The notes under the pieces: model-generated
Database searches by the model: none
What the model was told of the DNA's origin: nothing
What the model saw: the letters and a program-made list of their open reading frames with translations, nothing else
From: Bacillota bacterium
Lineage (GTDB): Bacteria > Bacillota > Sulfobacillia > DUSP01 > JBFMCS01
Reading direction: 5' to 3'
DNA: 64,000 bases
Assembly (NCBI GenBank): GCA_040754315.1
Contig: JBFMCS010000047.1
Coordinates: forward strand, 1 to 64,000
Part shown: positions 17,248 to 32,005 of the stretch, in pieces
Layout of the letters: each line of letters begins with the position of its first letter
Numbering within the stretch: position 1 is the stretch's first letter
Program-made: the position numbers and the translations under genes

Positions 17248-18156
17248 TTGCTGGAGAAGTTCAAGACCCTTGTTGCGGTGGTTCAGCTTAGGAGCTTCTC
17301 CCGCGCCGCCGGGATCCTCAACCTCTCCCAGCCCGCTGTCAGCAAGCAAATCGCCTCCCTGCAGTCCCAGTACGGGATGCAGTTGTTCCAGCAGCCAGTG
17401 AGGCAGTGCGTCCTGACGCCGGCCGGAGAGGTGCTCTTCCGGCATGCCCTGTCCGTTCTGGAGGCCTACCGCAACCTGCAAGAGGCCATGGGAGCCATAG
17501 AGCATGCCACTCCTCGGACCCTTATGGTGGGAGCCAGCACCGTCCCGGGCCAGTACATTCTCCCCCTCCTGGTGGGCCCCTTCATGTCTCGCCATCCTAA
17601 CGTGCTTGTGAACATAACGATCCACGACACCCGGGAAGTGGGATCTAGGCTCTTGCACGGCGAGGTCGACCTCGCACTCACCGGCATCCCCCTAAACCTC
17701 CCTGGAGTTGCCACTCACGCGCTCTTCGATGATGAGCTTGTACTCATCGCACCCCTTTGCCATGCCCTCAGCACCAGGGAGCAAGTCTGCCTCCAAGACA
17801 TTGAGGGGGAGGTATTCATCTGGAGGGAACAGGGCTCCGCGACCCGGCAGGTCCTTGAGGATGCGCTTGGATCTGCGGTGTCAAGGCTCCGGAGAACATT
17901 GGAACTGGGCAACACCCAGGCCGTAGTGGCCGCTGTGGAGGCCGGGGCGGGCCTCGCCTTCGTCTCCCGCTGGGCGGCCAACCGCGCGAAGCGGGCGGCC
18001 ACCCTGGCCGTCCTGCCCCTGGACGGGCTCAGGGTTCGGCGCAAGATCTACGGTTCTTACCTCGGATTCTCCGCCTCAGGCACCCTGGAAGAGTTCCTCA
18101 ACTTCCTGCTGGAGGCCGGGGCCAGGCTAGACCCCGACCAGGAGACTGGCCAATGA
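17248..18156 (+). CDS. LysR-family regulator of the selenium cluster
   Basis: A 302-residue LysR-type regulator. The N-terminal winged helix-turn-helix contains FKTLVAVVQLRSFSRAA and LSQPAVSKQIASLQ; the remainder is the periplasmic-binding-like effector domain. TTG at 17248 is placed by GGAGGTG. Its gene overlaps the DUF3343 gene by 4 nt, which ties it to that gene and the desulfurase. LysR regulators are recurrent partners of YedE and DUF3343 genes in selenium-using bacteria. A role in sensing selenium or sulphur status is inferred from context. Confidence 0.9.
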   Translation: MLEKFKTLVAVVQLRSFSRAAGILNLSQPAVSKQIASLQSQYGMQLFQQPVRQCVLTPAGEVLFRHALSVLEAYRNLQEAMGAIEHATPRTLMVGASTVPGQYILPLLVGPFMSRHPNVLVNITIHDTREVGSRLLHGEVDLALTGIPLNLPGVATHALFDDELVLIAPLCHALSTREQVCLQDIEGEVFIWREQGSATRQVLEDALGSAVSRLRRTLELGNTQAVVAAVEAGAGLAFVSRWAANRAKRAATLAVLPLDGLRVRRKIYGSYLGFSASGTLEEFLNFLLEAGARLDPDQETGQ

Positions 18157-18413
18157 CCCAGGATCTGGCCTATGTCACCTTCCCTTCGACCTATTGGGCT
18201 CTTAGGGCTGAAAGGCTTCTGAAGGAGTACGGGATTCCCGTGACCCTTAGGCCGGTACCTCGCACCATGAGTTCCAGCTGCGGCATTTGCCTGGAGGTAG
18301 AGGCTTCGTCAGTGCAAGATGTGGTGGCAGCCTCCACGCGACTCGGACTAGAACTGGAAGGGATCTGCACGAAGAACGGTCATTCCCTATTGGAACAAGA
18401 AGAACCTCACTGA
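18153..18413 (+). CDS. DUF3343 protein, putative selenium-handling small protein
   Basis: An 86-residue protein of the DUF3343 family. The N-terminal half has YVTFPSTYWALRAERLLK, and the conserved cysteine pair is in SSSCGICLEV (about residues 42-51). Members typically sit beside yedE, yedF and cysteine desulfurases, and a thiol-based role in selenium or sulphur transfer is suspected but not proven. It is coupled to the LysR gene by a 4-nt overlap and followed after 60 nt by the desulfurase gene. Biochemical function is unknown. Confidence 0.85.
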   Translation: MTQDLAYVTFPSTYWALRAERLLKEYGIPVTLRPVPRTMSSSCGICLEVEASSVQDVVAASTRLGLELEGICTKNGHSLLEQEEPH

Positions 18414-18473
18414 GATCAGGCGCTACCGGCAAGAGCGCGGCCCTGAGGCTTTCTCACTCCAGGAGGGTACTCG

Positions 18474-19631
18474 TTGACGATATACCTGGACAATGCTGCT
18501 ACTTCCTGGCCAAAACCCGCGGCTGTCTACCGGGCGGTAGACTCGTGCCTCCGCCATGTGGGAGCCAATCCTGGGCGCTCCGGTCACACCATGTCTCTGG
18601 AGGCTGCCCGCACGGTGGAGAACACCCGTGGTCTCCTGGCGCGTCTCCTGGGGTCAGAGGACCCCGCGCGCCTCGCATTCACGCTAAACGCCACCGACGC
18701 CCTGAACATGGCCATCAAGGGGGTGACCAGGCTTGGTGACCATGTGGTTTTATCCCAGATGGATCACAACTCGGTCCTGAGACCCCTTTCGGCACTGGCC
18801 CAGAGGGGCATAGTGTCCCTGGACGTCGCCCACGCAACACCCGCCGGCCTGGTTACCGCCAGCAGCGTGCGGGCATGTCTCAGGCCCAGTACGCGCCTGG
18901 TCACCCTAACCCACGCCTCCAACGTGGCCGGTACCATCAACCCGGTGGAGGAAATCGGGGAGATGCTTCAGGATAAAGGCATCCTGTTCCTCCTGGATGC
19001 CGCGCAGACGGCTGGGGTCCTCCCCATTGACGTGTCCAGGATGCCTGTGGATCTGGTGGCATTCAGCGGCCACAAGGGGCTCCTGGGGCCACAGGGCACA
19101 GGCGCCCTGTACGCTAGACCTGGGCTCGACCTTGAGCCATGGCGGGAGGGAGGCACTGGAAGCCAGTCTGACCAGCCATTCCAGCCGTACGGGATGCCGG
19201 AGCGCCTGGAGGCCGGAACCCCCAATACTCCTGGACTTGCCGGCCTCGGCGCCGGGCTCGAGTACCTTTTGGAGGCAGGCGTAGCCCGGCTGAGGGAAGG
19301 GGAGATTGAACTCACGGGGCTCCTCGTGGAACACCTGAGAGGCATCCCCGGTCTCCGGGTCCTGGGGACGGGAAGGGCTCAGGATAGCGTCGGTGTGGTC
19401 TCGTTTGTTGTCGATGCGGTGGACCCGGCAGACCTCGGCTACATCCTTGACCAGCACTACTCCATCATGGCCAGGCCCGGGCTCCACTGTGCCCCCTGGG
19501 CCCACGAGGCCCTAGGCACATTCCCCCAAGGCGCCCTCAGGCTCAGTCTAGGCCCCTTCAATACGGCTGAAGAACTCAAGGCCACGCGGGATGCCATAGC
19601 CGAGGCAGTCAAGGATGCCAGGGGTTTTTGA
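18474..19631 (+). CDS. Class-V aminotransferase, cysteine desulfurase/selenocysteine lyase type
   Basis: A PLP enzyme of 385 residues that should release sulphur from cysteine or selenium from selenocysteine as a protein-bound per(seleno)sulfide. Features are IYLDNAATSWPKP at the N-terminus, the PLP lysine in FSGHKGLLGPQGTG, and the catalytic cysteine in RPGLHCAPWAHE. TTG at 18474 follows AGGAGGG. This subfamily is distinct from IscS/NifS and often lies near YedE, YedF and SelD. It may generate selenide for SelD, whose gene is not in this window. Confidence 0.88.
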   Translation: MTIYLDNAATSWPKPAAVYRAVDSCLRHVGANPGRSGHTMSLEAARTVENTRGLLARLLGSEDPARLAFTLNATDALNMAIKGVTRLGDHVVLSQMDHNSVLRPLSALAQRGIVSLDVAHATPAGLVTASSVRACLRPSTRLVTLTHASNVAGTINPVEEIGEMLQDKGILFLLDAAQTAGVLPIDVSRMPVDLVAFSGHKGLLGPQGTGALYARPGLDLEPWREGGTGSQSDQPFQPYGMPERLEAGTPNTPGLAGLGAGLEYLLEAGVARLREGEIELTGLLVEHLRGIPGLRVLGTGRAQDSVGVVSFVVDAVDPADLGYILDQHYSIMARPGLHCAPWAHEALGTFPQGALRLSLGPFNTAEELKATRDAIAEAVKDARGF

Positions 19632-21599: not shown

Positions 21600-21644
21600 G
21601 GCCGCATTCCTCCCAGGGTCAAAAACCCTAGGAGGAATGCGGCC
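21600..21644. repeat. Long near-perfect inverted repeat
   Basis: Two 20-nt arms (21600-21619 and 21625-21644) pair almost perfectly around a 5-nt loop; the outer arm sequence includes GGCCGCATTCCTCC. The stem is far longer than a normal terminator and has no U-run on either side. It lies between the truncated permease and rnfD, where a deletion is suspected. It could be a mobile-element trace or a strong bidirectional block. Confidence 0.7.
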
Positions 21645-21703: not shown

Positions 21704-22690
21704 TTAGCCCCACATCACCCTGGCTCGTTCAGCCAAGTTCGCATTCTCCATGGTTTCTCCAAACCTCAGCCTGTGAGTGGCCTTGTCAATCATGGGCACG
21801 AAGAAGTTCATGATGAGGATGGAGAAGGCAACACCCTCAACGGGGCCCATGTAGAGGCGGAACACCGTGATGAGGATGCCTATGCAAACCCCGTAGATGA
21901 GCTTGCCCTTATGCGTGACAGGACTGGTGACCCAGTCAGTAGCCATGAAGATGGCGCCAAGAAGGAGACCTCCCGCCAGCACGTGGAGCAAGGGATTCCT
22001 TCCGAATATGGCGGTAAGGACGAACACCGTCCCCACCGTGGAAACGGGGATCCTCCAGCAGATGTGGCCCCTGTGGTAGAGGTACAGCCCGCCCAGGATC
22101 AGGGCCAGGGCGGATGTCTCCCCCAGGGAGCCGCCGGGATTGGCGAAGAACAGCGCGCCGTAGGGAATGGGCAGCCCTTGCTTGAGCAGCGCCATGGGTG
22201 TGGCGCCGCTGACGGCATCCACCATGGGGAGCCGCACCGCCCATCCCGCAAAGGGGTTGATGAGCACGAACACAGACCCCAGCACTATCACCGCCACCCT
22301 GCCGAAGAGTGCCGGGTTGAAGCGGTTCCACCCGAGGCCGCCCATGAGTTCCTTGGCAATCCCCACACCGATGAAGCTGGCCAGTATCGCCAGCCACCAG
22401 GAGGTTGTCGGTGAGAAGCACAGCGCCACGAACAAGCCGGTGAGCAGGGCGCTCCCGTCTCTAAGGCTATGTTTCTTGCCCAGGGCAGCCCTGACGATGA
22501 CGTCACTCAGTGCCGCCGTGACCATGCACACCAGTATCAGAAGGAGCGCATTCAGCCTGTAGAAGTACAGGGAGGTGATCGTAACGAGACTCAGGGCGGT
22601 GAACACGTCCCACATGGCACGCTGCACGGTCCCCTTCGCCTTTATGTGTGGAGGGGGAGTTACGATGAACTTCTCCGGGATCATGAGCAT
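21704..22690 (-). CDS. rnfD: RnfD, FMN-binding membrane subunit of an Rnf-type complex
   Basis: A polytopic membrane protein of the NqrB/RnfD family, 328 residues. The covalent FMN site is visible as DAVSGATPMA, where the threonine carries the flavin in characterised members; GGLGWNRFNPALFGR is another family signature. In Rnf, RnfD takes electrons from RnfG and passes them to RnfC, linked to ion transport. ATG 22690 or the better-spaced ATG 22684 follows AAGGAGG. It is 7 nt from rnfC. No rnfG, rnfE, rnfA or rnfB follows: the next sequence is a broken permease. Confidence 0.93.
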   Translation of the reverse strand: MLMIPEKFIVTPPPHIKAKGTVQRAMWDVFTALSLVTITSLYFYRLNALLLILVCMVTAALSDVIVRAALGKKHSLRDGSALLTGLFVALCFSPTTSWWLAILASFIGVGIAKELMGGLGWNRFNPALFGRVAVIVLGSVFVLINPFAGWAVRLPMVDAVSGATPMALLKQGLPIPYGALFFANPGGSLGETSALALILGGLYLYHRGHICWRIPVSTVGTVFVLTAIFGRNPLLHVLAGGLLLGAIFMATDWVTSPVTHKGKLIYGVCIGILITVFRLYMGPVEGVAFSILIMNFFVPMIDKATHRLRFGETMENANLAERARVMWG

Positions 22691-22697
22691 CGCCTCC

Positions 22698-24014
22698 TTA
22701 TTGCTTCCGCCGCCTGGCCAGGATATCGGCCTTGGCGAACCTGACGAATTGTATTAGGGGCCGTTTTGAAGGACAGACGTAAGCACACACTCCACACTCA
22801 AAGCAGTCCATGGCTCCCCAGTCTTCCGCCTGGGCGTACCTGCCCGCTTCAGCGAAGGTACCGATGAAGTTCGGGTATAGGAACATCGGGCAGTGATCAA
22901 CGCACTTGCCGCACCTTACACAAGCCAGCCAGCCCTCAGGATCTACCATCTCCGGGGGAATGGCCAGGATCCCGCTGGTACCCTTCACCACCGGCACATC
23001 AAGGCTCGATTGAGCCCATCCGGTCATCGGGCCGCCCAGCACTACCTTGGCGGCACCCTTAATGCCACCGCACTGCTCAAGGACATGCCGGACAGGGGTT
23101 CCTATCTTCACCCTGACATTCTTCGGTTCGGCCACCGCAGGGCCACTCACCGTCAAGGCTCTCTCGATTAAGGGTTTGCCCTGTGTGACCGCCTGGAACA
23201 CCGCTATGGTGGTGCCGACATTCTGCACAAGGGCCCCCACCTCCATGGGGAGTTTGCCGGGTGGCACCTCCCTGTCAAGAACAGCCTTGATCAGCTGCTT
23301 CTCAGCCCCCTGCGGGTACTTGCACTCCAGCGGGACAACCTCCATACCCTCCATGCCCGCAACCTTCTCACTGATGAGGGCGATGGCATCGGGTTTGTTG
23401 CCCTCTATCCCGAAGTAGCAGCGAGAGGCGCCCACCGCCTTCAGGAGCAGGCGGGCCCCTTGCACCATCTCCTCCGCCATCTCCAGCATGTTCCTGTGGT
23501 CACACGTAAGGAATGGCTCGCACTCGCCACCATTGATGATGACGGACTCAATGGGCTTGTCCGCGGGCGGGCTCAGCTTGACCGCTGTCGGGAAGGCCGC
23601 GCCCCCCATGCCCACGATGCCAGCCTCCCTGACTGCCTTCTTGATGTCGTCGGGAGTGGCTTCCTCAACGCTCTTGCCCGGCGGCAGGTCCGCTGTGTTC
23701 TGTTCCTCGGCCACAGCGATGACCACGCTGTTCACCTGGGTCCCTGTGAAGTAGGGCCGCGGTTCCACGGCCTTTACCGTGCCAGCGACACTGGCGTGAA
23801 CAGGGGCGCTCACGAAGGCCCCGGTATCACCGACCTTCTGGCCGGCCAGGACAGTGTCACCCACCTTGACCAAGGGGTCACAGGGCGCGCCGGTATGTTG
23901 ATGAAGGGGGATCACTACCTCCTCCGGCAAGGCAATCTCCTGGATTTCCTTGCCGCCGCTAGCTTCCTTGCACGTAGGAGGGTGGATCCCTGCCTGGAAG
24001 GTCTTTGCGCTCAC
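22698..24014 (-). CDS. rnfC: RnfC, NADH-binding iron-sulfur subunit of an Rnf-type complex
   Basis: A complete 438-residue RnfC. The N-terminal barrel-sandwich region contains GIHPPTCKE; the flavin/NADH-binding Nqo1-like domain has GMGGAAFPTAVKL and NGGECEPFLTCDHR; an SLBB-like part follows. Two [4Fe-4S] motifs lie near the end: CVRCGKCVDHCP and CFECGVCAYVCP. In Rnf complexes RnfC exchanges electrons with NAD+/NADH on the cytoplasmic face. It lies 69 nt after fdhB and 7 nt before rnfD, in one apparent operon with the formate dehydrogenase genes. Confidence 0.95.
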   Translation of the reverse strand: MSAKTFQAGIHPPTCKEASGGKEIQEIALPEEVVIPLHQHTGAPCDPLVKVGDTVLAGQKVGDTGAFVSAPVHASVAGTVKAVEPRPYFTGTQVNSVVIAVAEEQNTADLPPGKSVEEATPDDIKKAVREAGIVGMGGAAFPTAVKLSPPADKPIESVIINGGECEPFLTCDHRNMLEMAEEMVQGARLLLKAVGASRCYFGIEGNKPDAIALISEKVAGMEGMEVVPLECKYPQGAEKQLIKAVLDREVPPGKLPMEVGALVQNVGTTIAVFQAVTQGKPLIERALTVSGPAVAEPKNVRVKIGTPVRHVLEQCGGIKGAAKVVLGGPMTGWAQSSLDVPVVKGTSGILAIPPEMVDPEGWLACVRCGKCVDHCPMFLYPNFIGTFAEAGRYAQAEDWGAMDCFECGVCAYVCPSKRPLIQFVRFAKADILARRRKQ

Positions 24015-24083
24015 CTAGATCCCTCCAACTCCTTTATGGTTTCTCGGCTGTGTCATTGGCCCTCTGGGGGATCCCCCACGGGG

Positions 24084-24851
24084 CTACTCCTTGGAGAAGT
24101 CCTTCACCTTGATCCTGTTGGCCAGGAGTCCCAGGGCCAAGCCAGCTACAGCCAGGGCTCTTAACGGGCCAAACAGAACGTTCCAGACCCGGGAGAAAAC
24201 TGGGATCTCCGGTTCATCCGGCAAACCGTACTTCGACGGCAGGTCTGTGAGGACATACACCGTCCCGGTGCCACCCACGATATCGGGTCCGTATACCCGG
24301 GCGCCGCTGATGCCCTTGGCCTTCAGACCATCTACGATAGCGTAGGCCTTGGCCACCATTTCCACCCTGTCCCCATACCATATGGCCCCAGTGGGGCATG
24401 TCTTGACACACATTGGTGTCAGGCCGTTTGTTATCCGGTCGTAACAGAAGGTGCACTTGCGCATGACACCCTTTATGGTGTCCAGCTGCGCCACCCCAAA
24501 GGGGCACGCTCCCACACAGTAGTTGCACCCAATGCACTTCTTCGGATCCACCAGGACTGTGCCCTCAGGCGTGTGATGCAGGGCCCCAGTGGGGCACACC
24601 ATCACGCAGGAGGCATTGGCGCAGTGAAGGCACTGCAGTTTTCCGAAGAGCCACTGTATAGACCCGTCTTCCCTCTCGTACTCCCTCATGGTGACCCGGG
24701 TCCACGTGGTGGGCGTGTACCTTGGAGGGTTCTCGTAGTACCCGGTGAACTTGGTATTCTCAGCTGGGAGCCCGTTCCAGTTCTTGCAGGCCGCCTGGCA
24801 GCCACGGCAGGCTATGCACCGGGTGGTGTCCACCAGCATTGTAGCCCTCAT
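24084..24851 (-). CDS. fdhB: Formate dehydrogenase iron-sulfur (beta) subunit, FdnH/HybA-like
   Basis: A 255-residue electron-transfer subunit with four cysteine clusters for [4Fe-4S] centres: CIACRGCQAACKNW, CANASCVMVCP, CIGCNYCVGACP and CTFCYD...CVKTCP. A single hydrophobic segment near residues 225-245 (LRALAVAGLALGLLANRI) resembles the membrane anchor that docks FdnH on the cytochrome b subunit FdnI. No such cytochrome gene is present; rnfC follows. It begins 1 nt after the fdhA stop. It probably travels with FdhA through the Tat system, since it has no signal of its own. Confidence 0.94.
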   Translation of the reverse strand: MRATMLVDTTRCIACRGCQAACKNWNGLPAENTKFTGYYENPPRYTPTTWTRVTMREYEREDGSIQWLFGKLQCLHCANASCVMVCPTGALHHTPEGTVLVDPKKCIGCNYCVGACPFGVAQLDTIKGVMRKCTFCYDRITNGLTPMCVKTCPTGAIWYGDRVEMVAKAYAIVDGLKAKGISGARVYGPDIVGGTGTVYVLTDLPSKYGLPDEPEIPVFSRVWNVLFGPLRALAVAGLALGLLANRIKVKDFSKE

Positions 24852-24852
24852 G

Positions 24853-27800
24853 CTAACTCACCCTCCTTACGTTGCACAAGAACGCCTTGTACTCGGGGAT
24901 GGTAGTATTGGCGTCTCCCACGTACGGTGTGAGGTCATTGGCTATGGCTCCGTTGGACATGCCGGCGTAACCCCAATGCCAGGGCAGTCCTACGATCTCA
25001 ACTTCCCTGCCTGCCACCATCAAGGGCTTCATGCGAGGCGTGACGCAGGCCACGGCCTTTATCTCCCCGCGCTTGGTGGAGATGATAACCTCGTCTCCGT
25101 TGCCGGCGCCCACCTGGGCCGCTAAACCAAGGCTTATCTCCACGAACATGTTAGGCATCATTTCGTTAAGCCACGGGCAGTTCCGGGTCATGATGCCAGA
25201 CTGCCAGTGCTCCGTGACCCTGTAGGTTGTGCCGACGTGCGGGTACTCGGCACTGCCTACCTCAGCCATCTCCTCTGGTCTCCAGATGACTATGGCCGGG
25301 TTGATCTGGGTCTTGGAAAGCGCGTTCCTATAGGGGCTTTCCACCGGCTCGTAGTGCTCGGGGAAGGGACCCTCAGCCAGCCGGTTCGAGAACAGGAGCC
25401 CCTGGAGCTCAGGCAGCATGATGAAGGGCCGCTGCGCCGATTCCTCTGGGGTCACGTGGGTGCCATCCGCGGTCCTCCAAGCGAAGTCGGGCACGTCCGG
25501 GGTAACCCACTTTTCCCCGTTCCACCAAATGACGGGCGCCCTGGGATCCCACGGCTTCCCGCTGGCATCCGACGAACACCTGTTGTAGAGGATCCTGCGG
25601 TTAAGAGGCCAGGCGAAGGACCATCCCGGGTGGAGCCCTATGCCTTCCTTCTCCCGCACCCTTGATTTGCACGCAGGTTTCTCTGTGTTGTTGTAGTAGC
25701 CCGAGTATATCCAGCAGCCACAGGCTGTGGACCCGTCGGCAGCCAGCTGTGTGAAATTGAGCAGCGGTTGCTTGGTCGCCCAGTTCATACCGTTGATTTC
25801 CAGGGCTACCTTCTGGATGTCAGGCTCCTCCCAGTCTCCCCCGCCGTAGTCCCAGTTCATCTTGAGGATGGGGTCAGGGAACGCGCCGTTCTCTGCCTGG
25901 TAGAGATTGCGTATCGTCTTGAAGATCTTGTCCGCGATCCACAGATCGGACCTGGCCTCCCCTGGCGGTTCCAGTGCCTTGTAGCGCCACTGTATCCAGC
26001 GGCCGCTGTTGGAGATGCTCCCTTCCTTCTCGTAGGAGATGGCAGCGGGGAGTAAGAACACCTCGGTATCTATTGTCGACGAGTCCACGTCCGGGTCCTT
26101 GTACCAGAAGGACGCGCTCTCCGTCTCCACGATGTCTATGGCCACCATCCAGTCCAGCTTCGCCAGGGCCTTGCGCTCCGCCACGGCATTGGGCCCTCCC
26201 ACAGCCGGGTTCTGGCCCCACATGAAGAAGCCCTTGATCTCGCCATCCTCCATCTGCTCGAAGATAGCTATGTGGGAGTGATTCCGGTCATCCAGCTTCG
26301 GGAGGTAGTCATAGCAAAAATCATTGGCTGCCGTGGCAGCGTCACCCCAGAAAGCCTTGAGCTGGCTGGTGAGGAACTTGGGCTTGTTGGACCAGTAGCC
26401 AGTCTTCGGCGTCTCCTTCTCGTTATAGTCCTTGAGAGCCGGGTGCGCCGAGGCCTTGGGCATCCCGAGGTAACCTGGGAGAAGGTGGAACAGCATGGCC
26501 ATGTCCGTTGAGCCCTGCACGTTGGATTCACCGCGCTGCGCGTTTACGCCGCCTCCGGCCAACCCGATGTTACCCAGGATCATCTGGAGTATGGCGATGG
26601 CCCGGACGTTCTGGGACCCATGGGTATGCTGGGTGATCCCCATCGCGTAGAGGATGGTTCCAACCTTGCCCCTGCGCCCGGTGCCACAGTAGGTCTGAGC
26701 TACCTTGAGGTAGGCATCCTCAGGGCAACCCGTTATCGAGCACACGGTCTTTACATCATAGCGGGAAAAGTGCTTCTTCATGAGCTGCCACGCGCAGTTC
26801 GGGTCCTGCATCGTGGGATCCTTGAGCACGTTGCCCTCTTCATCCTTCTGGTAGGACCAGGTGGACTTGTCGTACTTGACCTTGTCAGGCCCGGGTCCCA
26901 CTGCTCCGGAGAACATGCCGTCCTGGAATGAGAAGTCCGGGTTGATAAGATACGTAGCGTTGGTGAAGTTCGAGACATATTCCTCGTCATAGAGGCCGTT
27001 TTCCAGGGCGTAGAATATAAGGCCCCCCAGGAATGCGATGTCCGTGCCAGGCCTCAGTGGGGCGTAGATATCGGCCACCGCCGAAGTCCTGGTGAACCTG
27101 GGGTCAATGTTTATAAACTTGCCGCCCTTGTCACGGCTGGCGCTCACCCAGTGCATGGAGATGGGGTGGTTCTCCGCGGTGTTGGCCCCGATGGCCATTA
27201 TGACATCGGCGTTGCGGTAGTCCACCCAGTGGTTTGTCATGGCTCCTCTACCGAATGTCGCGGCCAGACCGGCCACGGTGGAGGAGTGTCACAGGCGGGC
27301 GTGGTGATCCAAGTTCACCACGCCGAGGGCTCTCATTATCTTGTGCATGAGGTAGTTCTCTTCGTTGTCGATGGCAGCGCTTCCCAGGTGCCCAATGCCG
27401 AAGGTCCTGTTGACGGTCACGCCGTTGGAATCCTTGGTCTCGAAGGTGGCATCACGGGTTGCCTTTACCCTCTTGGCGACCTCCTCCAAGGCCCACTCCC
27501 AGCTCTTCTCCTCCCACCTGTCACTCTTGGGCGCCCGGTAAAGGACATGGGTCGCCCTCTCCGGGTTAAGAACCCTGTTTCCATGGCGGTCATACACGTT
27601 CCTCAGGTTCACCATGGAGTTGGCCTTCGAACAAAGGCCCCCCTCGTTAACCGGGTGGTCAGGATAGCCCTCCAAGCCCACAAGCTCCCCGTCCTTGACA
27701 TGGACGATGATGCCACAGCCGCCTGAACAGAACGCGCAGTTGGTCAGGTACTCCCTGGCATAGTGGATCTTCATGGGCTGAGCAGCGTGAGCCCGAGTGC

Positions 27801-27879
27801 TGAAGCCAACGTTCGCCAGGCTGGCAGCAGCCACTGTGGCGCCCGAGAGCTTCAGGAAATCTCGGCGGGACAGTTTCAT
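24853..27879 (-). CDS. fdhA: Selenocysteine formate dehydrogenase, catalytic subunit (exported, FdnG type)
   Basis: A Mo/W-bis-pterin enzyme that oxidises formate to CO2. The gene is read through an in-frame UGA at 27291-27289, decoded as selenocysteine at residue 197 in the context HHARL-U-HSSTVAG, which aligns with the active site of E. coli FdnG. Total length is about 1008 residues. The N-terminus has a twin-arginine signal (SRRDFLKLSG) and an AHA cleavage site, so the enzyme acts outside the membrane. The [4Fe-4S] site is CAFCSGGCGI...LCSK. A SECIS hairpin follows the UGA, and selB lies in the same run. Its start overlaps fdhE by 4 nt. Confidence 0.95.
27241..27291 (-). promoter_or_regulatory. 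Bacterial SECIS element with the UGA selenocysteine codon
   Basis: Directly after the UGA (27291-27289) the mRNA can form a two-part hairpin. The lower stem is CTCCTC (27286-27281) with GAGGAG (27248-27243). The upper stem is GTGGCC (27276-27271) with GGCCGC (27265-27260). The apical loop is GGTCT (27270-27266), the same loop sequence bound by SelB in E. coli fdhF and fdnG. This structure tells the ribosome to insert selenocysteine rather than stop. Confidence 0.92.
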
Positions 27880-28811
27880 CCATTCTCACCTCTCTCGGTT
27901 GTTTCCTCTGCTTCCTCCATCTCCCCTATTTCAGGCACCAGCACAAGGCTGGAACCCGGTAGGTAACCCTCTTCCCTTGCCACCGCATCGTGCCCGAGGG
28001 TGGCTAGGTGCTGGACCGATAAGACCACCTCCCTGTCAAGTACGCGAGCGTCGAAGACCTTAAGATACCTCTTGCACGAGTCACAAACCTGTACCCTGCA
28101 ACCCTCATCCCCCTCAAGGTGGAAGAAACCCAGCGTCTCCTGGTCCTCGTTCCCGCAGAACGGGCAGCGGATCCTTGGGTACTCCCACTGAGCTGCGCAC
28201 AGCCAGCACTCCATAACCCTGAGCCCGTCGCTCTCCCGGAGCTGGGCCATGTGGGGCTTGGCGGCACACACGGGACATGTGCTCCCGGACCACAGGTGAG
28301 TGTCCCGGTCCCCTATCATGGACCGGGCGGCCCCACGGAAGAAAGGATGCATGACAGCCCAGAGCAAAAACTGGGCGACATCCGGGGATAGGCCCGTCGA
28401 CTCGCGGAGGCGTTTTGCCCAAACCCGAGGAGCCCCAGCAAGACCATCCACGAGCTGGTCAACGTGGGCCTGGAAGAACTCCAAAACAAGTTCCGGGGCA
28501 GGCACGACCTGGGCTCCGGTGGAATCTAACAGATTCACTAAGGCCTCGACATGCCTGGCAAAGACCTCTAAGTCAGGACAAAGATCCCCGAGCAGGGCTG
28601 TCCCCTGCCTCAGAGACTGCTTCAGGTCTTCGTCTTCGGGACGGAGGCTCCCCTTCATCCTCACCTCTTCCTGCAAGGTGAAGATCCTGAGTACCAGATC
28701 CTCAACCTTCTTGAACTCCGGTCTTTCCTTGGCACACTGCCGGACCTCAGCTGTGATCTCATCCAGCGAGGCCCAACTTGGTATTGGACGCTTCATCTTC
28801 ACGAAACCCAC
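27876..28811 (-). CDS. fdhE: FdhE, formate dehydrogenase accessory/maturation protein
   Basis: A cytoplasmic protein needed for assembly of exported respiratory formate dehydrogenases. It has 311 residues, with rubredoxin-like CxxC pairs: CPVCAAKP, CWLCAAQW, CPFCGNE and CDSCKRY. In E. coli FdhE binds iron through such cysteines and interacts with the catalytic subunit. It overlaps the start of fdhA by 4 nt, consistent with coupled synthesis of the chaperone and its client. The start is GTG 28811, with ATG 28796 as an alternative. Confidence 0.92.
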   Translation of the reverse strand: MGFVKMKRPIPSWASLDEITAEVRQCAKERPEFKKVEDLVLRIFTLQEEVRMKGSLRPEDEDLKQSLRQGTALLGDLCPDLEVFARHVEALVNLLDSTGAQVVPAPELVLEFFQAHVDQLVDGLAGAPRVWAKRLRESTGLSPDVAQFLLWAVMHPFFRGAARSMIGDRDTHLWSGSTCPVCAAKPHMAQLRESDGLRVMECWLCAAQWEYPRIRCPFCGNEDQETLGFFHLEGDEGCRVQVCDSCKRYLKVFDARVLDREVVLSVQHLATLGHDAVAREEGYLPGSSLVLVPEIGEMEEAEETTERGENG

Positions 28812-28928: not shown

Positions 28929-29666
28929 TCATGAGCTTTTTTCAACTTCCATTTCTGCCTTGCTGCTCCGTCTCCTAACCATCATGGAAGCCAGGACAAT
29001 GCTGATCTCGTACAGTCCTAGCATGGGCAAAGCCATGAGCACCTGGGAGACTACATCCGGGGGAGTGAGCACCGCCGCCACGATGAATATCACCAGGATG
29101 GCAAGTCTCCTCTGCCTCCTCAGCCCCGCTGGTGTCACAATGCCTACCTGCGCCAGGAAGAGCACAACCAGGGGCAGCTGGAACACTAGGCCAAATAGGA
29201 TGGTCAAGGTACCGATGAATGAGACATACTTGTCATAGGAGAACATCGCGGTCAATCCAGGCCCGGCAAAGCTCTGGAAGAACGCTATGGTGAAAGGAAG
29301 CACCACTAGGTAGGCAAAGGCAGCGCCCAGCAGGAAGAGAGTCAGGGACATGAGAACGACTAGGGCAAGGTACCTCCTCTCGTGCCTGTACAAGGCAGGC
29401 GAGACAAAGCCCCACACCTGGTAGAGAATGAAAGGCAGAGCCACGAAGAGACCAGCTATCAAAGAGATCTTCATGTTTGTGACCAGGGCCTCCGCCGGGT
29501 TTATGTAGACCAGTTCAAGGTCGCCGCCCAGCGCCCTAAGAAATGCGCTTATCCAGCCGGCGAAGCTAAAGCACGCCGTCACCGCGACGAAGTAGACGCC
29601 GCCTGCCCAGAGGAGTCTCTTCCTTAGCTCCTTGAGGTGTTCAAGCACTGAAGTCTTCTCGTTCAT
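28929..29666 (-). CDS. tatC: TatC, twin-arginine translocase receptor
   Basis: The multi-spanning Tat subunit that recognises twin-arginine signals. Six hydrophobic segments are present. The N-terminal MNEKTSVLEHLKELRKRLLW and the FILYQVWGFVSPALYRHERR region are typical. I place the start at ATG 29666; the upstream frame to 29726 lies inside tatA and lacks TatC-like sequence. The clustering of tatC, two tatA genes, fdhE and fdhA points to export of the folded, cofactor-loaded formate dehydrogenase as a main task. It overlaps tatA by 26 nt. Confidence 0.95.
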   Translation of the reverse strand: MNEKTSVLEHLKELRKRLLWAGGVYFVAVTACFSFAGWISAFLRALGGDLELVYINPAEALVTNMKISLIAGLFVALPFILYQVWGFVSPALYRHERRYLALVVLMSLTLFLLGAAFAYLVVLPFTIAFFQSFAGPGLTAMFSYDKYVSFIGTLTILFGLVFQLPLVVLFLAQVGIVTPAGLRRQRRLAILVIFIVAAVLTPPDVVSQVLMALPMLGLYEISIVLASMMVRRRSSKAEMEVEKSS

Positions 29667-29970
29667 CCTGACCCTCTCCCGCACTGACGTAGGCTTCCCC
29701 GCCAGCAGGCTGTGCCCCTGCCCCATTACGGCCTATCTCTTTCTCGGGTTCATCCAGGAGCTGGTCCAGGCGGGGAACATTTACCTGGGCTGCCCGGGTG
29801 ACCTCCTTCATACCCTCGTTCATCTCCCGCTGGATATCCTCGAAGGTCTTGTTAAACCGGGCCAGGGCCCTGCCAGCCGACCTGGCAAGGTCCGGAAGCC
29901 TCTCCGGGCCAAAAACCAGGAGGGCTACCAGAAGCACTATGAAGAGTTCTCCCATTCCTATACCCAGCAT
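29641..29970 (-). CDS. tatA: TatA/TatB-family protein (longer copy)
   Basis: A single-spanning Tat subunit of 109 residues: an N-terminal membrane helix (GELFIVLLVALLVFG), the FGPERLPDLARSAG hinge and an amphipathic helix, then a long charged tail with FNKTFEDIQREMNEGMKE. The longer tail and second helical region resemble TatB more than TatA, though Firmicutes mostly use TatA-type proteins for both roles. A second, shorter copy lies at 32006-32179. It is located between selB and tatC. Confidence 0.9.
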   Translation of the reverse strand: MLGIGMGELFIVLLVALLVFGPERLPDLARSAGRALARFNKTFEDIQREMNEGMKEVTRAAQVNVPRLDQLLDEPEKEIGRNGAGAQPAGGEAYVSAGEGQDEREDFSA

Positions 29971-29987: not shown

Positions 29988-31892
29988 CTAGGACCCGTGG
30001 AGCGTCCTAGAGTCTCCTTCCCGTCTTGTAAACCTCACCCTGTCTAGGTATCCCAGGAGGGGTAAGGCATACCTTCTTGAGGTGCCTAAGAGATCGCGGA
30101 AGTCCGCCACCGTCATGGGACCCTGTTCTTGTATGAAGCGCCGCACGCGGTTCTTTGCCTCCTCAACCACATCGGCGTGGAACACCATGTCATCCTCAAC
30201 ACGGATGAGACGCTTCTCCTCCAGGAGGAGCCGTACCACGTCCCCGGCACGCCCGCTCACGGCTGCCTGGGCCACCACCTCTGCCACTGGTGGGGGGTTG
30301 AAGCCGCCTGCCCTGAACTGCTCCTCCAGGTCCTCCTTGATCTGGCGGCCCTCCACATCCATGGATGCGGACTGGCCAGGAAGCGCCAGGACCTCCTTGT
30401 TCACCACTAGGAGGCCATCCTGTTCCATGGCGGCGGCCAGGGCAGTGAATTGCCTCTGGTCCCACCCCCTGGTGGCTTGCCCCCTCACCTCTTCCCTGGG
30501 GGCCCCGCGCCTCATGGGGTGCCTAGCGTGATACTCACCCAGAAAACACCGGATCTTCCCGGCCATTGCCTGGTATACCTCGGGATGAACCACAAGGCCG
30601 CAGTCCTTCCAAAAAAGCGCCTTACCTCGCGCGGCCAGGTGCTCCACCATCGCGGTTACCCGCTCGGGGTTCTCCGCTATGAGAAACCCCAGTGTCTGAA
30701 GACTCACAGGGCTGTTCTGGATCCGGAGCTCCACCAGCGCGGCACCGGATCCCTCAGCCTGGTCAATGAGCCTCAGCAGCTCATGGTCCATGTGGTTAAG
30801 GCGGCGGAAACGTCCCCTGGAGGTTATCACCCTCCCCCCCCCGATGGTGAGGGCAGGCGAGTAGCTCCGGACGATGAAGCGGTCTCCCTTGCTCACCGCC
30901 ATGGGTTCCTCAGCCTTGAACCGCACCAAGCCTTCATCCCCGGGATCTAGCGAATCCCCCTCAAGGCTCACCAGGCGTCCCAGGACCTCCGAGGTTCCCA
31001 CGTGGAGCCTTACCCTGGTGGAGCTGGCCAGTGGCCTCAAGGCCCGGGAAAGCAGGCGGAAGGTGCCCGCAAACCCCCAGGTTGGAGCCAGAGTCCCGGG
31101 CTCGGAGAGCACAGAACCCCGTCGCACCTCACCTCGCTCGACCTTGGCCAGGTTCAGGGCGACGCGCTGGCCCGCCAGGGCCCCGGGCACCCTTTTGCCG
31201 TGTACCTCTAGCTGCCTCACCTTGACGGTGAAGCCCTGGGGCATGACGTCCAGTCGCTGGCCATCCACAATCTCCCCGGAAACCAGGGTACCTGTAACCA
31301 CTGTTCCAAAGCCCGGCATGGTGAATACCCTGTCAACGGGGAGGCGCGCCACCCCCTCAGACGTCCTGGCCAGGGCTTCCGAGACCACCTTACCTATGGC
31401 CTTCCTCAGTTCTTCAAGGCCCTCCCCGGTCACCGCCGATACCTGTATCACCGGTGAGCCCTCCAGGGTGGTACCCGCCAGGAGGTTATGGATCTCGTCC
31501 ATTACAATGCAAGCCCACTCATCGTCCACGAGGTCTCGCTTCGTCACGGCAACGATGCCCCGGCTAACCCCAAGGAGATCCAGGATGTCCAGGTGTTCCC
31601 TGGTCTGGGGCATGGGGCCCTCGTCCGCAGCCACCACCAGGAGGGCCAGGTCGATCCCGCTCACGCCAGCCAGCATGTTCTTGATGAACCGTTCATGGCC
31701 AGGCACATCCACTATAGCCACGGGGACGCCGTCTATGTCCATGTGGGCAAAGCCCAGGTCAATGGATATCCCGCGCTCTTTCTCCTGGGGCAGGCGGTCC
31801 GTTTCCTGCCCGGTCAAGGCATTGACCAGGGCAGTCTTGCCGTGGTCGATGTGGCCTGCGGTTCCCACTACGAAGTGGCGTCCTGAGTCCAA
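29988..31892 (-). CDS. selB: SelB, selenocysteine-specific elongation factor
   Basis: A GTPase that carries selenocysteyl-tRNA to UGA codons followed by a SECIS hairpin. The EF-Tu-like part has GTAGHIDHGKT (P-loop), DVPGHERF (G3) and TKRD (G4), then beta-barrel domains, then C-terminal winged-helix domains (about residues 370-634) that bind the SECIS. TTG 31892 is used because GGGAGGAG precedes it and the GTPase domain begins there; the frame is open to 31970. Its client fdhA is 2 kb downstream on the same strand. selA, selC and selD are not in the window. Confidence 0.96.
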   Translation of the reverse strand: MDSGRHFVVGTAGHIDHGKTALVNALTGQETDRLPQEKERGISIDLGFAHMDIDGVPVAIVDVPGHERFIKNMLAGVSGIDLALLVVAADEGPMPQTREHLDILDLLGVSRGIVAVTKRDLVDDEWACIVMDEIHNLLAGTTLEGSPVIQVSAVTGEGLEELRKAIGKVVSEALARTSEGVARLPVDRVFTMPGFGTVVTGTLVSGEIVDGQRLDVMPQGFTVKVRQLEVHGKRVPGALAGQRVALNLAKVERGEVRRGSVLSEPGTLAPTWGFAGTFRLLSRALRPLASSTRVRLHVGTSEVLGRLVSLEGDSLDPGDEGLVRFKAEEPMAVSKGDRFIVRSYSPALTIGGGRVITSRGRFRRLNHMDHELLRLIDQAEGSGAALVELRIQNSPVSLQTLGFLIAENPERVTAMVEHLAARGKALFWKDCGLVVHPEVYQAMAGKIRCFLGEYHARHPMRRGAPREEVRGQATRGWDQRQFTALAAAMEQDGLLVVNKEVLALPGQSASMDVEGRQIKEDLEEQFRAGGFNPPPVAEVVAQAAVSGRAGDVVRLLLEEKRLIRVEDDMVFHADVVEEAKNRVRRFIQEQGPMTVADFRDLLGTSRRYALPLLGYLDRVRFTRREGDSRTLHGS

Positions 31893-32005
31893 CGTGTCTC
31901 CTCCCCGCCCGGTCCACCCATAGAACAGCCCACAGCCCTTGGCTGCAGGCCGCGGTTTAAGGCCCCGCATCTAACGGAAGGAACGACATGATCCGGGCCA
32001 GAACC

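Follow-up and report, generated by a model that had tools for sequence, protein, structure and literature searches.

We analysed a window of 64,000 nucleotides (nt) from a Bacillota bacterium of the class Sulfobacillia (the whole of positions 1 to 64,000 of contig JBFMCS010000047.1, assembly GCA_040754315.1), in which the genes of an exported formate dehydrogenase (FDH) are followed by genes for two subunits of the Rnf complex, RnfC and RnfD. The four genes, fdhA (24853-27879), fdhB (24084-24851), rnfC2 (22698-24014) and rnfD2 (21704-22690), form one minus-strand run with intergenic gaps of 1, 69 and 7 nt, exactly as given in a preliminary description of this DNA. FdhA is a molybdopterin alpha subunit of the FDH-N type (1178 bits against an NCBIfam cut-off of 814) with a Pfam match to the twin-arginine translocation (Tat) signal. 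Its frame contains a single in-frame TGA, at 27289-27291 (codon 197), and we assign this codon to selenocysteine (Sec) because three homologues (loci L027, L030 and L037) carry cysteine there; a hairpin 3′ of the TGA resembling a Sec insertion element folded only slightly better than shuffled sequences (z −1.6). The export signal and Sec residue proposed earlier were borne out. FdhB is a FdnH-like ferredoxin subunit whose closest solved chain is Escherichia coli FdnH (1kqf_B), although it falls below the TIGR01582 cut-off (212 versus 335). By inspection it has 16 cluster cysteines, and it lacks a signal of its own and ends in one transmembrane helix (hydrophobic 19-mer, mean 1.98).

The two Rnf-type proteins are paralogues of RnfC and RnfD. 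RnfC2 passes TIGR01945 (531 versus a cut-off of 246) and keeps an intact nicotinamide adenine dinucleotide (NAD)/flavin mononucleotide (FMN) motif, GMGGAAFPT, together with both CxxCxxCxxxCP cluster motifs. RnfD2 passes TIGR01946 (241 versus 207), has PF03116 as its sole Pfam content and carries the covalent-FMN threonine (T164) and the riboflavin residues N125 and D252. The operon in the window includes no rnfA, rnfB, rnfE, rnfG or cytochrome b gene, and 3′ of rnfD2 there is nothing but a 108-amino acid (aa) C-terminal fragment of a PF00860 permease, in agreement with the broken permease noted before. A perfect 14-bp inverted repeat, GGCCGCATTCCTCC, with no clear T-run, lies at 21600-21644 between rnfD2 and the permease remnant.

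We found that RnfC2 and RnfD2 (hereafter the pair) belong to a separate, widespread type. When an RnfD2-type profile was searched against 154 genomes of the class, nine genomes scored 518-562 bits while canonical RnfD reached at most 334. A wider survey of a species-level GTDB collection gave 340 encoded relatives, and the best 79 loci were examined, 74 of them being of the RnfD2 type. In the tree, the RnfD2 clade stood apart from canonical RnfD (SH-aLRT 99); in L034, the RnfD-like gene that precedes a canonical rnf run was a long-branch outlier and was left out. Among the best 79 of the 340 relatives, the hosts were mostly Bacillota and Actinomycetota. The former included many metagenome-assembled genomes (MAGs), some named Syntrophomonadaceae or Dethiobacter, and the isolates Anoxynatronum buryatiense, which has the operon (L046), and Natronincola peptidivorans; a few MAGs named Desulfovibrio, Thioalkalivibrio, Hydrogenedentota or Bradymonadales may reflect binning errors. 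Both proteins matched solved chains (RnfD2, E 3e-64; RnfC2, E 1e-125), and T164, N125 and D252 of RnfD2 aligned with T156, N123 and D249 of Acetobacterium woodii RnfD. The FMN position was threonine in 73 and serine in 2 of 75 RnfD2 sequences, with the riboflavin asparagine and aspartate invariant. Likewise, the NAD/FMN motif was present in 61/61 non-fused RnfC2 and both cluster motifs in 63/63 RnfC2, and apbE, encoding the flavin transferase, was found in the operon neighbourhood of three Actinomycetota loci. Two further candidate marks of the type were discarded: the C-terminal tail of RnfC as a sign of RnfB binding, in which canonical RnfC and RnfC2 overlap in length, and a longer RnfD2 loop before the FMN threonine as a docking insert, canonical RnfD of Azotobacter vinelandii being longer there.

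Family searches of the genome containing the window (2.92 Mb, 65 contigs) revealed a second RnfD, encoded in a run of rnfC-D-E-A-B on contig C33 (L003:4366-8815), after which comes apbE, with an unlinked rnfG on contig C36 (L041:5871-6446). A complete rnf set missing its own rnfC and rnfD had been named in the preliminary description as what would tell against an independent role of the pair. Because C and D are both encoded within this canonical run, the pair in the window is extra and does not complete the canonical complex. Canonical operons arranged C-D-E-A(-B), in which rnfE follows rnfD without an intervening rnfG, were also seen in L009, L016, L017, L018 and L020. On contig C60 of the same genome (L040:4124-5550), a second apbE and a gene for a small FMN-bind protein lie near moeA-, mobA- and fdhD-like genes, and perhaps belong to another flavinylated extracytosolic system.

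The neighbours of the pair were then compared across the 74 RnfD2-type loci. fdhA was next to the pair in 42 of them, in the orders A-B-C-D, C-D-A-B, A-B-D-C and others and with gaps mostly under 60 nt, and rnfA, rnfB or rnfE was next to it in none; strongly conserved synteny across Bacillota and Actinomycetota, whose absence was to have refuted the earlier proposal, is thus found. In 12 loci the neighbour was a PhsA/PsrA-like molybdoenzyme or its iron–sulphur (FeS) subunit, and in two (L061:7533-13688 and L066:7594-13689) it was a [NiFe] hydrogenase, with small and large subunits and a Tat-exported FeS protein; there, rnfC2-rnfD2 came first and no HybB or cytochrome b gene intervened. The remaining loci ended at a contig edge, showed an FeS gene alone or, in one case, had rnfG. 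The tree indicated that the molybdoenzyme partner has changed several times, and therefore that the pair swaps its outer partners. In L082, L085 and L096, rnfC2-rnfD2-fdhB had no visible adjoining catalytic gene, and the contig runs on in L082 and L096. The single rnfG case is a Dethiobacter MAG (L112:6899-10005), with rnfG directly upstream of rnfC2-rnfD2 and no A, B or E, possibly a three-subunit intermediate form. In L030:3-3491 and L067, fdhA and fdhB share one open frame, either by natural fusion or by loss of a stop codon in assembly.

A swap was also found at the inner end. Natronincola peptidivorans (L108:5881-8961) and a Clostridiaceae MAG (L107:4553-7588) encode [FeFe] hydrogenase-RnfC fusions of 1012-1027 aa (domains scanned in L108), in operons that also hold a PhsA/PsrA-like enzyme, an FeS subunit and rnfD. 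Within the fusions, RnfC has lost the NAD/FMN motif and retained both 4Fe-4S cluster motifs. Such decay of the NAD site with preservation of the clusters is what would be expected when H2 replaces NADH, if RnfC serves to supply RnfD with electrons from a redox site in the cytosol.

To these swaps can be added an exchange with quinone-type subunits. Of the 154 class genomes, 20 had homologues of the window fdhA (at least 47% identity), which lay beside the pair in eight. In the readable loci of the other twelve genomes, the gene next to fdhB encoded an FdnI-type cytochrome b, except in one family, where it encoded a HybB/HmcC/QrcD-type membrane protein. This is the same position after fdhB, and therefore the pair takes the place of the quinone-reducing subunit. 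Consistently, futalosine menaquinone synthesis was found in 8/12 genomes lacking the pair compared with 0/9 having it (Fisher p 0.005, uncorrected for relatedness). Futalosine markers were absent from 33 of 34 genomes with the pair, our own included, and a classical menD over the cut-off was found in 0/34 and 0/21 genomes; our genome showed no menaquinone synthesis by either of these two pathways. PF01292 cytochrome b was likewise absent from 31 of the 34, our genome among them; a gene of this kind serving the dehydrogenase from another place had been named earlier as a refutation. The contrast in quinone capacity between genomes with and without the pair is strong but not perfect.

Further genes lie upstream of the dehydrogenase, the whole minus-strand order being selB, tatA, tatC, fdhE, fdhA, fdhB, rnfC and rnfD. 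fdhE (27876-28811), for an FDH accessory protein, overlaps the start of fdhA and also precedes fdhA in many relatives. Next come open reading frames (ORFs) for a TatC-like protein (28929-29726), which as a query finds tatC beside the operon in relatives, for a TatA-like protein (29641-29970), which served as the tatA reference in relatives, and for a SelB-like selenocysteine elongation factor (29988-31970), identified from its sequence, all on the minus strand; selB homologues adjoin the operon in Actinomycetota loci. On the plus strand near this cluster (18153-19631), a cysteine desulfurase-like gene, preceded by a small ORF resembling DUF3343, could have a role in selenium delivery together with that ORF.

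Collectively, these data make it probable that the four genes encode one membrane-spanning complex, a formate:NAD+ oxidoreductase in which electrons would pass from FdhB to RnfD2 and on to RnfC2. Comparative genomics supports such a wiring, predicted to operate without RnfA, RnfB, RnfE, RnfG or cytochrome b, and from gene linkage and subunit replacement we infer the physical complex and the step from FdhB to FMN. FdhA, as an exported selenoenzyme, would interconvert formate and CO2 at the outer surface of the membrane, and FdhB, held by its C-terminal helix, would conduct the electrons through its [4Fe-4S] clusters. RnfD2 would then stand in for cytochrome b and quinone, with electrons entering the covalent FMN outside and crossing to riboflavin, before reaching the two [4Fe-4S] clusters, the FMN and finally the NAD+ of RnfC2. 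The path is modelled on cryo-electron microscopy of the A. woodii complex, in which electrons run from outer RnfG to FMN on RnfD T156, riboflavin (N123, D249) and the clusters, FMN and NAD+ of RnfC (PMC11889175). Canonical RnfB, RnfA, RnfE and RnfG would do no more than carry ferredoxin electrons to the outer side, and would be dispensable here.

The reaction should be electrogenic because the electrons themselves cross the membrane, and this part of the preliminary description may stand. The suggestion of ion pumping by RnfD finds no support in the A. woodii study, in which RnfD carries electrons only (PMC11889175), although older work on NqrB reportedly disagrees with a role confined to carrying electrons. 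With standard potentials of about −430 mV for formate/CO2 and −320 mV for NAD (PMC8805022), the difference of ~110 mV per electron is comparable to the membrane potential, and therefore the reaction should run either way. At high formate, electrons would move inward, making NADH and membrane potential; at low formate, as in syntrophy, the membrane potential would drive NADH electrons outward to form formate outside the cell. The Wood-Ljungdahl marker CdhC/AcsB was present in our genome and in 24 of 46 genomes examined (controls without the pair included), and NADH-driven formate formation outside the cell fits acetogens and syntrophs.

Several observations weigh against this interpretation. 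Canonical Rnf (over the RnfA/E cut-off) was found in 48/50 genomes having the pair, a check for missing rnfA, rnfB, rnfE and rnfG in such genomes having been proposed earlier, and all nine class genomes with the pair (9/9) also have canonical RnfD; with co-occurrence this close to universal, subunit sharing becomes possible. The two genomes lacking rnfA/E were set aside as proof of independence, both being 1.7-Mb drafts and one of them having a fragment at a contig end. Moreover, among the 12 relatives whose dehydrogenase has a quinone-type subunit, four were without both menaquinone markers, and MAGs can be incomplete. In one reading of the co-occurrence, RnfC2 and RnfD2 would join RnfA, RnfB, RnfE and RnfG of the other Rnf in a hybrid pump, with FdhAB as an extra electron entry on the outer face, and the rnfG gene beside the pair in Dethiobacter points the same way. 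We regard this as unlikely. The canonical Rnf of our genome is supplied with C and D, the pair is accompanied by A, B or E in none of the 74 loci, and FdhB and RnfG would need the same face of RnfD; nor does the [FeFe] hydrogenase-RnfC fusion require any ferredoxin entry, and a near-complete genome of ‘Candidatus Syntrophonatronum acetioxidans’ was reported with RnfC, RnfD and RnfG only (PMC6295475). A functional cause of the co-occurrence, namely that an NAD-linked FDH needs Rnf to exchange NADH with ferredoxin and that both need ApbE, accounts for it just as well as hybrid assembly.

The dehydrogenase and the pair might also be merely co-regulated, RnfC2-RnfD2 being a separate NADH-linked flavoprotein and FdhAB feeding an unknown acceptor. 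In favour of this, rnfC2-rnfD2 lies between fdhA and fdhB in L051 and L052. Yet mere co-regulation would leave unexplained why the pair and the cytochrome b and HybB-type gamma subunits replace one another at the same operon position, why short-gap linkage survives several changes of gene order, and why the pair recurs with three unrelated outer enzymes that each need a membrane electron acceptor; we consider it improbable. Least credible of all is that the enzyme is an ordinary FDH-N linked to quinone, with a gamma subunit that is encoded elsewhere or has diverged past recognition. FdhA and FdhB are indeed ordinary subunits of that type, and FdhB retains the anchor helix through which FdnH contacts FdnI in E. 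coli, but neither a PF01292 cytochrome b nor a searched route to menaquinone was found in the genome. The preferred assignment, a formate:NAD+ oxidoreductase wired through RnfD2 and RnfC2, would thus keep the core of the preliminary proposal, to which the natural swaps at both ends lend weight. It also seems reasonably likely, with somewhat less assurance than for the complex itself, that RnfC-RnfD serves quinone-free anaerobes in general as a plug-in wire across the membrane. It would accept FDH, PhsA/PsrA-like or [NiFe] enzymes outside and NAD(H) or a fused [FeFe] hydrogenase inside, forming a redox half-loop that needs neither quinones nor cytochromes and may include potential-driven formation of extracellular formate from NADH in syntrophy.

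How NADH and formate are coupled across the membrane in quinone-free acetogens and syntrophs is an open bioenergetic question. If correct, our interpretation would supply the acceptor for exported FDHs and a way to use membrane potential to expel electrons as formate. Half of the Rnf machine would be a separable module, which bears on the evolution of Rnf and NQR and could explain ‘incomplete’ rnf sets in genomes. Cultured isolates with the module exist in A. buryatiense and, for the hydrogenase fusion, N. peptidivorans. We found no description of an fdhAB-rnfCD unit in the open-access literature, where papers on FDH, RnfCD, incomplete Rnf and fusions of RnfC were searched, although a subscription paper could exist.

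Compared with the Rnf complex RnfCDGEAB of A. woodii and Clostridium tetanomorphum, the unit described here has homologous RnfC and RnfD, the same cofactor residues and the same half of the path, from the outer face to NAD+, whereas it has no ferredoxin input through RnfB, no RnfA/E pump and no RnfG, the outer donor being an exported dehydrogenase. With FDH-N (FdnGHI of E. coli, 1kqf, and clostridial relatives such as that in Thermacetogenium phaeum, a quinone-linked outward FDH; PMC6895022) it shares the catalytic and FeS subunits, Tat export, Sec, FdhE and outward orientation, but RnfC-RnfD and NAD(H) would replace the cytochrome b/quinone subunit. The exported FDHs of ‘Candidatus Contubernalis alkaliaceticus’ and ‘Candidatus Syntrophonatronum acetioxidans’ (PMC10608574, PMC6295475) are similar by their published description, with a Tat-exported alpha subunit in both and a membrane-anchored beta subunit in the first. 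Both organisms are alkaliphilic syntrophic acetate oxidisers for which no formate transporter was reported and no electron acceptor of the FDH was named (PMC10608574, PMC6295475); for the second, RnfC, RnfD and two RnfG were listed as Rnf subunits, which the authors did not connect with the FDH (PMC6295475). In the two-subunit systems of the NQR/RNF-like kind (Meheust et al. 2021 eLife 66878; 2024 mSystems, PMC11334425), a lone RnfD homologue likewise provides a one-way path across the membrane that links cytosolic NAD(P)H with the outside. That homologue carries a fused NAD-binding domain of the NqrF type, has no flavinylation threonine and delivers to an FMN-binding protein, whereas here RnfC is separate, RnfD2 retains the threonine and an FeS/Mo or NiFe enzyme acts as the outer partner. 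In summary, fdhAB-rnfCD would unite known parts in a new combination, and its broader novelty would lie in a reusable, quinone-free RnfC-RnfD wire.

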